In this document: piece after piece, positions 26,688 through 50,207 of the stretch
Layout of the letters: each line of letters starts with the position of its first letter
Position numbering within the stretch: position 1 is the stretch's first letter
Source: Pseudomonadota bacterium
GTDB lineage: Bacteria > Pseudomonadota > Gammaproteobacteria > Burkholderiales > Burkholderiaceae_C
DNA: 64,000 bases
Reading direction: 5' to 3'
Assembly (NCBI GenBank): GCA_020161065.1
Contig: JAIUPH010000005.1
Location: 1-64,000, forward strand
The notes under the pieces: generated by a model
Database searches by the model: none
Told to the model about the DNA's origin: nothing
Seen by the model: the letters and a program-made list of their open reading frames with translations, nothing else
Program-made: the position numbers and the translations under genes

Positions 26688-27758
26688 ATGAAGATCGCCA
26701 TCCTGCCCGGCGACGGCATCGGCCCCGAGATCATGGCCGAGGCCGTGAAGGTGCTGAACGCGCTGGGCCTGAGCTTCGAGACCGAGACCGCGCTGGTCGG
26801 CGGCGCTGCCTACGACGCCCATGGCCACCCGCTGCCCGAGGCCACGCTGGCGCTGGCCAAGGCGGCCGACGCGGTGCTGTTCGGCGCCGTCGGCGACTGG
26901 AAGTACGACAAGCTGGAGCGCCAGTTCCGCCCCGAGCAGGCCATCCTGGGCCTGCGCAAGCAGCTGGGCCTGTTCGCCAATTTCCGCCCGGCCATCTGCT
27001 ACGAGCAGCTGACGCAGGCCTCCAGCCTGAAGCCCGAGCTGGTGGCCGGGCTCGACATCCTGATCATCCGCGAGCTGACCGGCGACATCTACTTCGGCCA
27101 GCCGCGCGGGCGCCGCAGCGCCGTCGACGGCCACTTCCCCGGTGCCGAGGAAGCCTTCGACACCATGCGCTACAGCAAGCCGGAGATCGAGCGCATCGCG
27201 CACGTGGCGTTCCAGGCGGCGCGCAAGCGCGGCAAAAAGGTCACCAGCGTCGACAAGGCCAACGTGCTGGAGACCTTCCAGTTCTGGAAGGACGTGGTGA
27301 CCGAGGTGCACGCGCAGTACCCCGACGTGACGCTGGAGCACATGTACGTCGACAACGCCGCGATGCAACTCGTCAAGGCGCCCAAGGCCTTCGACGTGGT
27401 GGTCACCGGCAACATGTTCGGCGACATCCTGTCCGACGAAGCGGCCATGCTCACCGGCAGCATCGGCATGCTGCCCAGCGCGTCGCTCGACAAGAACAAC
27501 AAGGGCCTCTACGAACCCAGCCACGGCAGCGCGCCCGACATCGCGGGCAAGGGCGTCGCCAACCCGCTGGCCACCATCCTGTCGGCGGCGATGATGCTGC
27601 GCTTCTCGCTCAACCAGGAAGCCGCCGCCCGGCGCATCGAAACCGCGGTGAAAGCGGTGCTCGCGCAAGGCCTGCGCACGGCCGACATCTGGAGCGAAGG
27701 CACGACCAAGGTCGGCACGCGCGAGATGGGCGACGCGGTGGTCAAGGCGTTGGCTTGA
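26688..27758 (+). CDS. leuB: 3-isopropylmalate dehydrogenase
   Basis: A 356-residue NAD-dependent beta-decarboxylating dehydrogenase that converts 3-isopropylmalate to 2-oxoisocaproate in leucine synthesis. Family features: [14 protein letters not shown] start, the [14 protein letters not shown] substrate loop, [20 protein letters not shown] metal-binding segment and the NAD loop [18 protein letters not shown]. An AAAGGA lies just upstream of the ATG. It closes the leuCDB block; in related genomes asd would follow directly, but here two accessory genes intervene. Confidence 0.97.
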
Positions 27759-27781
27759 AGTACGGCCGGCGCCTCGTCGGA

Positions 27782-27831
27782 TTGTCAAATTGTCAATTGA
27801 ATTGCCAATTTGTACGATGACGGGCTAGCAT
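27782..27831 (+). promoter_or_regulatory. AT-rich promoter with TTGTCAA direct repeats, possibly leaderless
   Basis: Two TTGTCAA copies (27782-27788 and 27790-27796), then ATTGAATTGCCAAT, lie in the only AT-rich patch here. TTGCCA (27802-27807) and TAGCAT (27826-27831) are separated by 18 bases. A start 6-7 bases later would fall on the ATG at 27838, so the ATPase mRNA may lack a leader; no Shine-Dalgarno is visible. The repeats may be an operator. Confidence 0.4.
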
Positions 27832-27837
27832 GGCCTG

Positions 27838-29028
27838 ATGATTCCGCGCCAAGCGCTGCCACGCCTGCTGGAACTGGCCGGCTACTACCCCATCGTCGCG
27901 ATCACCGGGCCGCGCCAGTCCGGCAAGACGACGCTGGCGCGCGCCGCGTTCGCCGACAAGCCCTACGCCAGCCTGGAAGACCCCGACGTGCGCGCGCTGG
28001 CGGCGCACGACCCGCGCGGCTTTCTCGCCCAATACCCGGATGGGGCGATCCTCGACGAAGCCCAGCGCGCGCCGGATCTCTTCTCGTATCTGCAAACTCG
28101 GGTCGACGGCGAGCGCCGCATGGGCTTGTTCATCGTCACCGGTTCGCAGCAGTTCGGGCTGATGGAGGGGCTGTCGCAATCGCTGGCCGGGCGCGTGGGC
28201 TTGCTCCATCTGTTGCCCTTCTCCTGGGACGAGGTCGCCGCGACATGCTCGGGCGACCGGCTGGAAGACTGGCTGTGGCGCGGCAGCTACCCGCCGCTGT
28301 ACGACCGCGCGGTGCCGCCCCACATCTGGTTTGCCGACTACCTGTCCACCTACGTCGAGCGCGACGTGCGCCGCCTGCTGCAGGTGCGCGACCTCGACGC
28401 CTTCCATCGCTTCGTGCTGATGTGCGCGGCGCGAACCGGCCAGTTGCTCAACCTCTCGGCGCTGGCCGCCGATTGCGGCATCACCCATAACACCGCACAT
28501 GCCTGGCTCTCGGTGCTGGAGGCCGGCTACCTGGTGCTGCGGCTGGCGCCGTTCCACCGCAACTTCGGCAAGCGCCTGACCAAGACGCCCAAGCTGTACT
28601 TCCTGGACACCGGCTTTGCCGCGTGGCTGGCGGGCGTGCGCAGCGCCGACGAACTGGCCATCGGCAGCCTGCGCGGCCCCTTGTTCGAGACCTGGGTGGT
28701 CGGCGAATTCGCCAAGCGCCGCCGCAACGCGCTGGTGGCGGAAGAACTGCACTTCTGGCGCGATTCCGCCGGCAACGAAGTGGACCTGCTGGTGACGCGC
28801 GGCGACGAGGTCCTGGCCGCCGTCGAATGCAAGTCGGGCCGCACGGTCGCCGAAGACTGGTTCGCGCCGCTCTCGCGCTTCAGCGCCTTGAGCGGCACGC
28901 CGCGCCGCTTGCTGATCTACGGTGGCGACGCCGACCAACCGCGCAGCGGCGCCGCCGTGTTCGGCTGGCGCCGCATTGGCCGCGCGCTCGATCAGGCCTT
29001 TGCCGCGCCGGCGCCGCCGGCGGCGTGA
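27838..29028 (+). CDS. AAA ATPase with DUF4143 / PD-(D/E)XK-like C terminus
   Basis: A 396-residue protein of the AAA_14-DUF4143 type. Residues 15-140 form a P-loop ATPase: Walker A GPRQSGKT (24-31), Walker B ILDEAQ with Asp73-Glu74, and a sensor-like VTGSQQF. A winged-helix-like middle follows, and the C-terminal DUF4143 (about 200-370) carries Asp316 (EVDLLV) and Glu330-Cys-Lys332 (VECKSG), the spacing of a PD-(D/E)XK nuclease fold, possibly inactive. Family members are widespread, often patchily distributed, and mostly of unknown function. The next gene, an exonuclease-helicase fusion, begins two bases after the stop, so the two are probably a functional pair. Both interrupt the leuB-asd order. 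Confidence 0.85.
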   Translation: MIPRQALPRLLELAGYYPIVAITGPRQSGKTTLARAAFADKPYASLEDPDVRALAAHDPRGFLAQYPDGAILDEAQRAPDLFSYLQTRVDGERRMGLFIVTGSQQFGLMEGLSQSLAGRVGLLHLLPFSWDEVAATCSGDRLEDWLWRGSYPPLYDRAVPPHIWFADYLSTYVERDVRRLLQVRDLDAFHRFVLMCAARTGQLLNLSALAADCGITHNTAHAWLSVLEAGYLVLRLAPFHRNFGKRLTKTPKLYFLDTGFAAWLAGVRSADELAIGSLRGPLFETWVVGEFAKRRRNALVAEELHFWRDSAGNEVDLLVTRGDEVLAAVECKSGRTVAEDWFAPLSRFSALSGTPRRLLIYGGDADQPRSGAAVFGWRRIGRALDQAFAAPAPPAA

Positions 29029-29030
29029 CC

Positions 29031-34241
<5,211 letters not shown>

Positions 34242-34310
34242 GCGCAGGGCGCGACCGCGGCAACGCCGGCTGCGGTGGCAACGGGCTGGCGCCGCGCACC
34301 CGCTCGCCCG

Positions 34311-34316
34311 TATACT
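34311..34316 (+). promoter_or_regulatory. -10 element of the asd leader promoter
   Basis: TATACT matches 5 of 6 consensus bases; no clear -35 is seen. A start 6-8 bases downstream would be at about 34323-34325, on or next to the ATG of the leader peptide, so the leader mRNA may be nearly leaderless. Confidence 0.5.
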
Positions 34317-34324
34317 CCGCCCCC

Positions 34325-34426
34325 ATGTTTGCCGCCCGCCCGTTCGTTCCGAACCGCACCGTCGCCGCCAAGGCCGGTGCCGCCGCGCGCGCAAGCACCA
34401 CCAAAACCACGACCATTACCGGCTGA
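34325..34426 (+). CDS. Thr-rich leader peptide of the asd attenuator
   Basis: A 33-codon frame starts with MFAARPFVPN and ends in STTKTTTITG. Codons 25-32 read Thr-Thr-Lys-Thr-Thr-Thr-Ile-Thr: six Thr plus Lys and Ile, all end products of the aspartate-semialdehyde pathway that the next gene (asd) feeds. The same style of Thr/Ile codons marks the enterobacterial thr operon leader. The peptide's last bases and stop codon (ACCGGCTG, 34418-34425) are complementary to CAGCCGGT (34477-34484), which overlaps the 5' arm of a T-tailed terminator. Ribosome stalling at the Thr codons would leave that segment free and block the terminator; completion of the peptide would mask it. A database gene model would probably miss so short a frame. 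Confidence 0.7.
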   Translation: MFAARPFVPNRTVAAKAGAAARASTTKTTTITG

Positions 34427-34505
34427 ACGCAGCCTGGTTCGTCGTGCGCCCGTTCCCGGCCCAGACGAGCCGGGTGCAGCCGGTCCGGTCGGGACCGTTT
34501 GTTTG
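34418..34505 (+). promoter_or_regulatory. Attenuator RNA of asd: pause hairpin, antiterminator and terminator
   Basis: Segment 1 GGCTG-AACG-CAGCC (34421-34434) is a hairpin at the leader stop codon. A middle stem CCCGGC/GCCGGG (34455-34460 and 34469-34474) follows. The terminator is CGGTCC (34481-34486), loop of 5, GGACCG (34492-34497), then TTTGTTTG. The antiterminator pairs ACCGGCTG (34418-34425) with CAGCCGGT (34477-34484), eight perfect base pairs that exclude the terminator's 5' arm. The asd ATG lies 20 bases beyond the T-tract. Confidence 0.68.
34481..34505 (+). terminator. Rho-independent terminator in the asd leader
   Basis: Six-base-pair GC stem (CGGTCC / GGACCG) with a five-base loop, followed directly by TTTGTTTG. 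Its position between a Thr-rich leader frame and asd marks it as a conditional terminator. Confidence 0.7.
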
Positions 34506-34524
34506 ACTGAAAGGGCGATTGAAC

Positions 34525-35640
34525 ATGAACACCTTGGTTGGTCTGGTCGGCTGGCGCGGCATGGTCGGCTCCGTGCTGATGGAGCGCATGCGCGCAGAGA
34601 ACGATTTCGCGCTCATCGAGCCGCTGTTCTTCTCCACCTCCAACGCCGGCGGCGCGGCGCCGGCGCAGGCGAAGAACGAAACCAGGCTGCACGACGCCTT
34701 CGACATCGCCGCGCTCAAGCGCTGCGACATCGTCATCACCGCCCAGGGCGGCGACTACACGAGCGAGGTCTTCCCCAAGCTGCGCGCCGCCGGTTGGAAC
34801 GGCCATTGGATCGACGCCGCCAGCACGCTGCGCATGAAGGACGATGCGGTCATCGTGCTCGACCCGGTGAACCTGCCGGTGATCCGCGCCGCGATGAAGA
34901 AGGGCGGCCGCAACTGGATCGGCGGCAACTGCACGGTGAGCTGCATGCTGATGGGCGTGGGCGCGCTGTACAAGGCCGGCCTCGTCGAGTGGATGAGCAC
35001 GCAGACCTACCAGGCCGCCAGCGGCGGCGGCGCGCAGCACATGCGCGAGCTGCTCACGCAATACGGCACGCTCAACGCCGAGGTGAAGGCGCTGCTCGAC
35101 GACCCGAAGAGCGCGATCCTCGAAATCGACCGCAAGGTGATCGCCAAGCAGCGCGCGCTGTCGGCCGACGAGACGGCCAACTTCGGCGTGCCGCTGGGCG
35201 GCTCGCTGATCCCGTGGATCGACAAGGACCTCGGCAATGGCGTCAGCCGCGAAGAGTGGAAGGGCATGGCCGAGACCAACAAGATCCTCGGCACGGCGGC
35301 GCCGGTGCCGGTCGACGGCTTTTGCGTGCGCGTCGGCGCGATGCGCTGCCACAGCCAAGCGCTGACCTTCAAGCTGAAGAAGGACGTGCCGCTGGCCGAT
35401 GTCGAAGCGATGATCGCCGCCGACAACGCCTGGGTGACGGTGGTGCCCAACAACAAGGAAGCCACGCTGCGCGAGCTGACGCCGGTGGCCGTGACGGGCA
35501 CGATGACGATCCCCGTCGGCCGCATCCGCAAGCTGGCGATGGGCCCCGAGTACCTGGGCGCCTTCACCATCGGCGACCAGTTGCTGTGGGGCGCCGCCGA
35601 GCCGCTGCGCCGCATGCTGCGCATCCTGCTGGAGGCTTGA
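34525..35640 (+). CDS. asd: Aspartate-semialdehyde dehydrogenase
   Basis: A 371-residue enzyme that reduces aspartyl phosphate to aspartate semialdehyde with NADPH, the branch point to lysine/diaminopimelate, threonine, methionine and isoleucine. It starts with the nucleotide-binding [13 protein letters not shown] and has the catalytic Cys136 in GGNCTVSCM, matching Cys135 of the E. coli enzyme; length fits the proteobacterial long form. The ATG at 34525 has AAAGGG nine bases upstream, inside the region just after the attenuator T-tract. Expression is therefore probably set by read-through of that terminator. A large hairpin follows the stop codon. Confidence 0.97.
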
Positions 35641-49872: not shown

Positions 49873-49948
<76 letters not shown>

Positions 49949-49978
49949 ATCAAGCGTTGTTCGTGCGGGAACGGTCAT

Positions 49979-50054
49979 GACCCCTTCGTCTAGAGGCCTA
50001 GGACACGACCCTTTCACGGTTGTAACAGGGGTTCGAATCCCCTAGGGGTCGCCA
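49979..50054 (+). tRNA. tRNA-Glu (anticodon TTC)
   Basis: A 76-base cloverleaf with acceptor arms GACCCCT/AGGGGTC, anticodon loop CTTTCAC (anticodon TTC) on an ACGACC/GGTTGT stem, a GGTTCGAATCC T-arm and encoded CCA. It follows gltX, whose product charges it. Confidence 0.95.
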
Positions 50055-50130
50055 ACACAGTTGGCGTAAGTTGGGCAATACAAGTTCTGGCAGCACTTGC
50101 GGTCGCGAGACCGAAACGCTGCCACCGCGC

Positions 50131-50207
50131 GGAGCGGTAGTTCAGTTGGTTAGAATACCGGCCTGTCACGCCGGGGGTCGCGGGTTCGAGCCCCGTCCGC
50201 TCCGCCA
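50131..50207 (+). tRNA. tRNA-Asp (anticodon GTC)
   Basis: A 77-base cloverleaf with acceptor arms GGAGCGG/CCGCTCC, anticodon loop CTGTCAC (anticodon GTC) on a CCGGC/GCCGG stem, a GGGTTCGAGCCC T-arm and encoded CCA. Confidence 0.96.

Follow-up and report, generated by a model that had tools for sequence, protein, structure and literature searches.

A probable Thr/Ile/Lys attenuator upstream of asd in Burkholderiales, with sensing codons in a free leader or, as it appears, in the C-terminal tail of LeuB

Aspartate-semialdehyde dehydrogenase (Asd) acts where the pathways to lysine, threonine, methionine, isoleucine and the diaminopimelate of the cell wall branch off, and Thr, Ile and Lys are all produced downstream of it. 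Is the asd gene controlled by the supply of these amino acids? The question arises from the window (the whole 64,000-nucleotide stretch of DNA analysed here), in which leuB is followed by 6.5 kb with two frames, a TATACT box, a 33-codon ORF, alternative hairpins and asd. A preliminary description had proposed that asd is under Thr(/Ile/Lys) transcription attenuation, through a leader peptide, an antiterminator helix and a T-tailed terminator. The parts named there were recovered. The coordinates given for the 33-codon frame, the eight-pair helix and the terminator were correct, and the C-terminal end of the frame, read directly from the sequence, is S-T-T-K-T-T-T-I-T-G followed by the stop codon, Thr, Lys and Ile making up 8 of the 9 final codons. 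The eight-pair helix is complete, the downstream gene is asd by its match to the TIGR01745 model, and a consensus scan returned a terminator-like hairpin at 34481-34497 followed by TTTGTTT. Since five terminator-like sites were found on both strands of 3.2 kb and 1.7 were expected from shuffles, this hit alone is unremarkable. Comparable leaders are present in other free-leader loci.

Features of the asd upstream region in the window. Coordinates are those of the window and all features lie on the + strand.
26688-27758, +: leuB; the product ends VVKALA and has no tail; 6.5 kb 5' of the leader.
34311-34316, +: -10-like box TATACT, 8 nt 5' of the leader ATG; predicted promoter of the leader itself.
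34325-34426, +: leader ORF, MFAARPFVPNRTVAAKAGAAARASTTKTTTITG, 33 codons; ATG 34325-34327, stop TGA 34424-34426.
34397-34420, +: putative regulatory codons 25-32, Thr Thr Lys Thr Thr Thr Ile Thr, as read from the sequence.
34408-34446, +: possible alternative helix between Thr codons (CACGAC 34408-34413) and the hairpin b 5' arm (GTCGTG 34441-34446).
34418-34484, +: candidate antiterminator helix, ACCGGCTG 34418-34425 with CAGCCGGT 34477-34484, 8/8 pairs; encloses hairpin b.
34421-34434, +: hairpin s1 at the stop codon, GGCTG 34421-34425 with CAGCC 34430-34434; arms covary over 162 loci.
34433-34474, +: hairpin b, CCTGGTTCGTC 34433-34443 with GACGAGCCGGG 34464-34474, 11 pairs including G-U.
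34481-34504, +: intrinsic-terminator-like hairpin (CGGTCC-GGTCG-GGACCG, 34481-34497) and TTTGTTT, from the consensus scan.
34525-35640, +: asd, aspartate-semialdehyde dehydrogenase (TIGR01745, PF01118/PF02774); presumed controlled gene.

The interval between leuB and the leader (27759-34310) holds a 396-codon ORF at 27838-29028 that reads like an AAA-type ATPase. It also holds an open frame at 28623-34241 with DEAD-helicase and UvrD-helicase domains on one chain (Pfam, on 28992-34238).

In order to evaluate how common such a frame is, asd upstream regions were drawn from four sources: same-genus loci (30 of the 55 that matched), the species collection (its 80 best contigs), 150 same-family genomes (89 loci not already included) and order-level genomes (80 of the 119 that matched). 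One locus (L098) was left out because it had too little upstream sequence. The first set, which is all but the last-added regions, had 239 entries with enough upstream sequence, window included, and gave 227 distinct regions, identical ones being counted once. The 80 named contigs (L031-L110) lacked a family code; they were assigned to the window's family, f1, by similarity of their Asd, which is at least 84% identical over the best segment. A Thr/Ile/Lys-rich frame ending 65-165 nt 5' of asd was found in 162 of the 227 distinct regions, with a Thr score cut-off that, like the RNA core pattern used below, was fixed after inspection of the data. The frame is the end of LeuB in 81 loci (form A) and a free ORF in another 81 (form C, to which the window belongs); 57 loci have an untailed LeuB near asd (form B) and 8 have none of these (form D). 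In both frame-bearing forms the median distance from stop codon to asd is 93 nt. Within f1, the frame is present in 160 of 189 distinct loci (A 81, C 79; the others are B 26 and D 3). Outside this family it was seen in 4 of 78 order-level loci, namely all three examined in family f13 (L123, L249, L250) and one of three in f31 (L120). A chance origin of the frame is ruled out because it is conserved over so many loci. In the four outside loci, leader starts and downstream sequence differ from those of the main family; on this sequence evidence the f13 leaders are perhaps of independent origin.

The free leaders share a promoter-like signal. A -10-like hexamer (at least 4 of 6 matches to TATAAT, with A at position 2 and T at position 6) lies 4-12 nt 5' of the in-frame ATG in 79 of 81 loci, the start being taken as the in-frame ATG with the best box; shuffled sequences reach 8.9%. 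The commonest hexamer is TACAAT. The usual spacing from -10 box to transcription start would place the start of the RNA at most a few nt away from the leader ATG. Since the box mostly sits 6-9 nt 5' of the ATG (75 loci), the free leader is probably carried on a leaderless mRNA, and in the window the predicted 5' UTR would be a few nt at most. Thirty-three codons is the length of 44 of 79 leaders. The last ten residues of the 81 free leaders are 44% Thr, 19% Ile and 17% Lys (80% in sum), and the 33-codon leaders end in KTTTIKG at 70% or more per position. Among the 44 leaders of this length, single-base variants were synonymous in 8 of 15 cases at codons 25-33 (4.1 expected) and in 12 of 41 at codons 2-10 (11.4 expected); the peptide-level signal is therefore small and confined to the Thr-rich end. 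Many of the same 44 leaders begin MFaArpFxLN, a start for which attenuation alone gives no explanation. At one locus (L088) an 11-codon leader, MNKIKTTGTKG, directly follows the LeuB stop, with TACAAT in between.

In form A the same residues are found at the C-terminus of LeuB. When 29 LeuB proteins were aligned, 28 sharing 82-91% identity with that of L032, the tailed LeuBs proved to carry 7-16 extra residues (such as TGKTITTKT or TTTTKTIKS) past AVVAAL/AVVAAI or a similar motif. Untailed LeuBs in the alignment, including the window's, stop at VVKAL/VVAAL, give or take a few residues, and the best-matching solved LeuB chain, 4iwh, stops where the tail starts (query 1-356 of 365). The last ten residues are 36% Thr, 21% Lys and 17% Ile in form A versus 30% Ala, 15% Val and 12% Leu in form B. 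Leader and tail do not occur side by side: in the 45 of 81 form C loci with leuB within 700 nt upstream, the last ten residues of LeuB hold no Thr in 44 and one Thr in the remaining locus. In this sample a LeuB tail and a nearby free leader are thus mutually exclusive, which is what a shared function would predict. Codon usage in the 81 tails differs from that of the LeuB body, with ATT for Ile in 79/136 versus 78/540 codons and AAA for Lys in 82/167 versus 43/394, a bias that possibly reflects slow codons or a constraint on the RNA. The AlphaFold model of a tailed LeuB was poor (mean pLDDT 55.7).

Mapped onto a FastTree of 130 Asd proteins, the A/C label requires 10 changes, and starred branches force at least 4 changes for A and at least 2 for C; with 24 of 127 branches starred, the tree is poorly supported and this count is rough. 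In this tree the window's Asd falls among relatives of the LeuB-tail form (sister L004, support 88). Its leader is similar to Comamonadaceae leaders, unlike this grouping; possibly the leader and its promoter were gained at the time the operon was split.

If the frame has a regulatory role at asd, it should be linked to the RNA that follows it. The RNA core TCGTY...CGAGYCGG accompanied the frame in 132 of 162 loci and was present in 1 of the 65 that lack it (p = 7e-32), that is in 71/81 of form A, 61/81 of form C, 1/57 of form B and 0/8 of form D; the sole B match (L210) has a degenerate tail, IGKATTN. By eye, three further B loci (L182, L213, L222) and one D locus (L029) keep related sequence. 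By the preliminary description, relatives that keep the terminator without the Thr-rich frame would count against attenuation. Element and frame do occur together in most loci; L222, L213 and L029 retain the element, as judged by eye, with no Thr-rich frame adjacent, and L222 and L213 speak against strict coupling. The LeuB of L029 has a tail, SAGKTITKTT, that ends 364 nt 5' of asd, away from the asd-proximal RNA element.

The element appears to be specific for asd. A model of the free-form RNA placed its best match directly 5' of asd in all 26 chosen genomes, 16 of which were in the training set, and every non-asd match among the first-look candidates scored (134 per genome) had an E value above 0.4. 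It also matched asd in six LeuB-tail genomes outside the training set (E 1e-13 to 0.017), so that forms A and C are most simply one homologous element dedicated to asd. A multi-gene regulon was rejected: one exact match to the tail pattern occurs in the window's genome and, with two mismatches, there are 5 other sites versus 12 in a reversed control; the finding of asd alone below E 0.4 among the 134 first-look candidates scored in each of the 26 genomes also argues against it. A known Rfam element or named leader family was rejected too. In the window Rfam at gathering score returned three tRNAs and no leader family; with E values up to 1, no Rfam match was obtained in eight related loci; and no Pfam or NCBIfam model matched the leader ORF. 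The three tRNA genes lie in succession at 49873-50204.

Conserved Thr codons with covarying stems were part of the original proposal, and two stems do covary, the hairpin at the stop codon and the one after it. Column covariation on a MAFFT alignment of free-leader loci was blurred by gaps and was replaced by an arm-exchange control, in which each arm is paired with its own or with a foreign partner from another locus, and by an aligned-structure score. The p values for hairpin b, for the s1 duplex energies, for the pairings thr-b5 and s15-post and for the extra helix of form A belong to an arm-exchange series of 28 uncorrected tests, in which small p values against pairing also occur (free-leader s15-b3, own partner worse in 55 of 77, p = 0.0025). 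For hairpin s1 the own partner was better in 127 of 162 loci (p = 4.5e-12). This signal is driven by the LeuB-tail loci (70 better, 11 worse), where matched changes such as GGGCT:AGCTC, AGAC:GTCT, GACGT:ACGTC and AGCG:CGCT are seen; in form C alone it was not significant (48 better, 33 worse, p = 0.19). Duplex energies gave p = 1.2e-5 for A and p = 0.08 for C. For hairpin b, no arm was recognisable in 4 of 81 free-leader and 8 of 81 LeuB-tail loci; the own arm was better in 65 and worse in 12 of 77 form C loci (p = 1.1e-8), and better in 44 and worse in 28 of 73 form A loci (p = 0.0014). In an alignment of 47 form C loci (9 of the 56 non-redundant ones being left out), 93.5% of cells pair over the 3 pairs of s1 and 10 pairs of b. 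The covariation score of this structure was 0.143 versus 0.124 in shuffles, none of 500 shuffles reaching it, and slid structures did not exceed 0.075. Three pairs are changed on both sides, a number reached by 61 of 500 shuffles, and further pair types were no more frequent than in shuffles (279/500).

The other pairings behave differently. The candidate antiterminator helix, frequently GGGCTG:CAGTCC, was better than with shuffled codons in 49 of 57 loci (p = 7.5e-9) and showed no covariation on exchange (30 better, 27 worse, p = 0.72); the helix put forward in the preliminary description is thus conserved but not covarying. No covariation was detected by arm exchange for the helix between Thr codons and the b 5' arm (thr-b5, p = 0.38), both of whose sides, CACGAC and GTCGTG, are frequent in the free-leader alignment, and s15-post gave no signal (p = 0.40). 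In form A an extra helix between the loop of b and bases after b was favoured (own partner better in 50 and worse in 23 of 73 loci; uncorrected p = 0.01), with GGACCCC:GGGGTCC and ACAAACCC:GGGTTTGT as examples found by eye.

Termination was evaluated from U-tracts (5 of 8 T within the last 75 nt) and from hairpins of -6 kcal/mol or better directly before them. U-tracts were found in 58/81 form C, 30/81 form A and 22/65 form B and D loci, and the preceding hairpin in 48/81 form C loci, 16/81 form A loci and 7/65 loci without the frame. In LeuB-tail loci U-tracts are not above background (30/81 vs 22/65, p = 0.73). These counts support intrinsic termination for form C and not for form A in general.

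Switching was then assessed by equilibrium folds of isolated RNA, which carry no kinetics, on 40 non-redundant form C loci with a U-tract (16 of 56 have none and were left out). In these 40 loci, the terminator 3' arm paired with a probability of 0.32-0.48 as long as the ribosome edge stood between 12 and 3 nt short of the stop codon; at 0 to +9 nt the probability was 0.70-0.73, and at +13 it fell back to 0.50. The means were 0.42 at -6 and 0.73 at +6 from the start of the stop codon (lower in 33 loci, higher in 3; p = 5.7e-8), and the values for the window went from 0.67 to 1.0. Shuffling the last two codons and the stop raised the -6 value from 0.42 to 0.53 (p = 0.038; unshuffled lower in 21, higher in 13), hence the sequence-specific part of the switching is modest. 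Stalling had been proposed to free the antiterminator arm; the folds shift in the direction expected, but the contribution of the 5' arm is weak. With the whole RNA free of ribosomes, the mean terminator probability in 58 form C loci was 0.13, so untranslated RNA is predicted to read through; this and the drop at +13 differ from the behaviour that classical attenuators should show. Form A folds gave 0.21 at -6 and 0.37 at +6 (p = 0.013; the 22 of 60 non-redundant loci with a U-tract).

Together, these results make it likely that the region is a ribosome-mediated attenuator that ties asd expression to the supply of Thr, Ile and Lys. What is established here is the sequence and its conservation, the co-occurrence of frame and element, covariation in two hairpins and the exclusion between tail and leader; from these we infer translation, stalling, termination and the direction of the response. 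In the window, a promoter of its own would drive the 33-codon leader, whose mRNA would have practically no 5' UTR. With charged tRNAs in ample supply, a ribosome at the stop codon would cover the last codons and the stop hairpin, the U-tailed hairpin at 34481-34504 would form and transcription would end. When Thr (or Ile or Lys) is short, the ribosome would stall within codons 25-32 and leave the last codons free to pair downstream around hairpin b; this pairing would prevent the terminator and asd would be transcribed. In relatives with a tailed leuB directly before asd, the sensing codons would be the last codons of leuB, and the ribosome finishing LeuB would be the sensor. With somewhat less assurance, we consider it probable that about half of the element loci have no leader peptide, that the Thr/Ile/Lys tail on LeuB sets asd expression there through ribosome speed, and that the element has moved repeatedly between this tail and a leaderless mini-ORF. 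Attenuation of asd as first proposed gains from the conservation of the frame and its association with the core, and needs amending in that the sensor would be the LeuB tail in half of the loci.

Other mechanisms could use the same elements. Ribosome position could expose the RNA after the stop codon so that Rho or an RNase, rather than an intrinsic terminator, decides the outcome, an alternative that we regard as possible though clearly less probable, and that is most plausible for the LeuB-tail form. There, U-tracts stay at background, a terminator-like hairpin is found in only 16 of 81 loci and the extra helix reaching beyond b is favoured, at an uncorrected p value. The U-tailed hairpin of 48 of 81 free-leader loci, the window included, versus 7 of 65 loci without the frame, argues against Rho or processing and for intrinsic termination. 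Translational control, by alternative structures that hide or expose the asd ribosome-binding site, would agree with the identical median stop-to-asd distance in the two forms, but we judge it unlikely. Predicted accessibility of the asd start was 0.46-0.48 in all states in 60 non-redundant LeuB-tail loci (e-6 vs e+13, p = 0.29) and changed little, from 0.48 to 0.44, in 56 free-leader loci (p = 0.001). Being nearly independent of ribosome position, it led us to reject occlusion of the ribosome-binding site.

Could the peptide rather than its codons be what matters? In SecM-like nascent-chain arrest, stalling would be caused by the peptide and not by a shortage of charged tRNA. The strong conservation of KTTTIKG in 33-codon leaders and the presence of the motif on a full-length protein in the other form are in line with this, but the tails vary in sequence and length (ITGKTITTKT, ITTTTKTIKG, ITKTTKS) and keep their Thr/Ile/Lys content, which suits composition better than a fixed arrest motif, and we rate arrest as slightly less probable still than translational control. 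Least probable of all, and very much so, is that the tail serves LeuB or the free peptide as a protein, unrelated to asd. Free leaders do share the start MFaArpFxLN, and some leader peptides act in trans, as excerpts of PMC7298713 describe for peTrpL; against a role of this kind, untailed LeuBs and 4iwh end at the tail position, and the tail accompanies the asd-proximal RNA element. We therefore retain attenuation by a ribosome that responds to Thr, Ile and Lys.

Ribosome-mediated attenuators are well known in enterobacteria, in the thr operon leader ThrL and in the trp, his, leu and ilv leaders. The present element resembles thr-type leaders by a short frame rich in end-product codons, a stop codon near alternative hairpins and, in the window form, a U-tailed hairpin before the gene. 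Unlike enterobacterial leaders, it precedes asd, has Lys codons besides Thr and Ile, is probably leaderless, has no Rfam match and, in half of the frame loci, has its sensing codons in a full-length enzyme. In SecM-type systems, ribosome stalling on the C-terminal codons of a longer protein encoded upstream governs the gene that follows. SecM is a dedicated regulator that senses secretion through an arrest peptide; LeuB, unlike it, is a metabolic enzyme whose tail looks like an amino-acid sensor. The streptococcal asd RNA motif also lies upstream of asd and is in Rfam; the families searched presumably included it and the Thr leader, and the present element differs in having no Rfam match in the window or in the eight related loci. 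Another possible parallel comes from Sinorhizobium meliloti, a member of another class of bacteria. Excerpts of PMC7298713 describe its trpL transcript as starting at the ATG of the leader ORF, a leaderless attenuator of the type predicted here that differs by its Trp codons, its target trpE(G) and its 14 residues. Threonine genes elsewhere are placed under attenuators in excerpts of PMC1262725, and the asd RNA motif of streptococci is named in those of PMC6212727. No description of an asd attenuator in Betaproteobacteria was found in titles and abstract starts of the open-licence papers retrieved, and asd does not occur in the main texts of PMC2965389, PMC4833913 and PMC1262725. To judge from the sequences, the novelty would lie in asd being the target, in the sensing of Lys codons as well, in a leaderless start and, most of all, in an enzyme tail acting as sensor.

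If true, a Thr/Ile/Lys attenuator at asd would explain how flux is set in a large group of Burkholderiales. The switches between forms A and C provide natural pairs for testing attenuator origins. The LeuB-tail form, if true, would mean that attenuation is possible without a dedicated leader peptide; other attenuators may then hide in ordinary gene tails, where leader searches would miss them.
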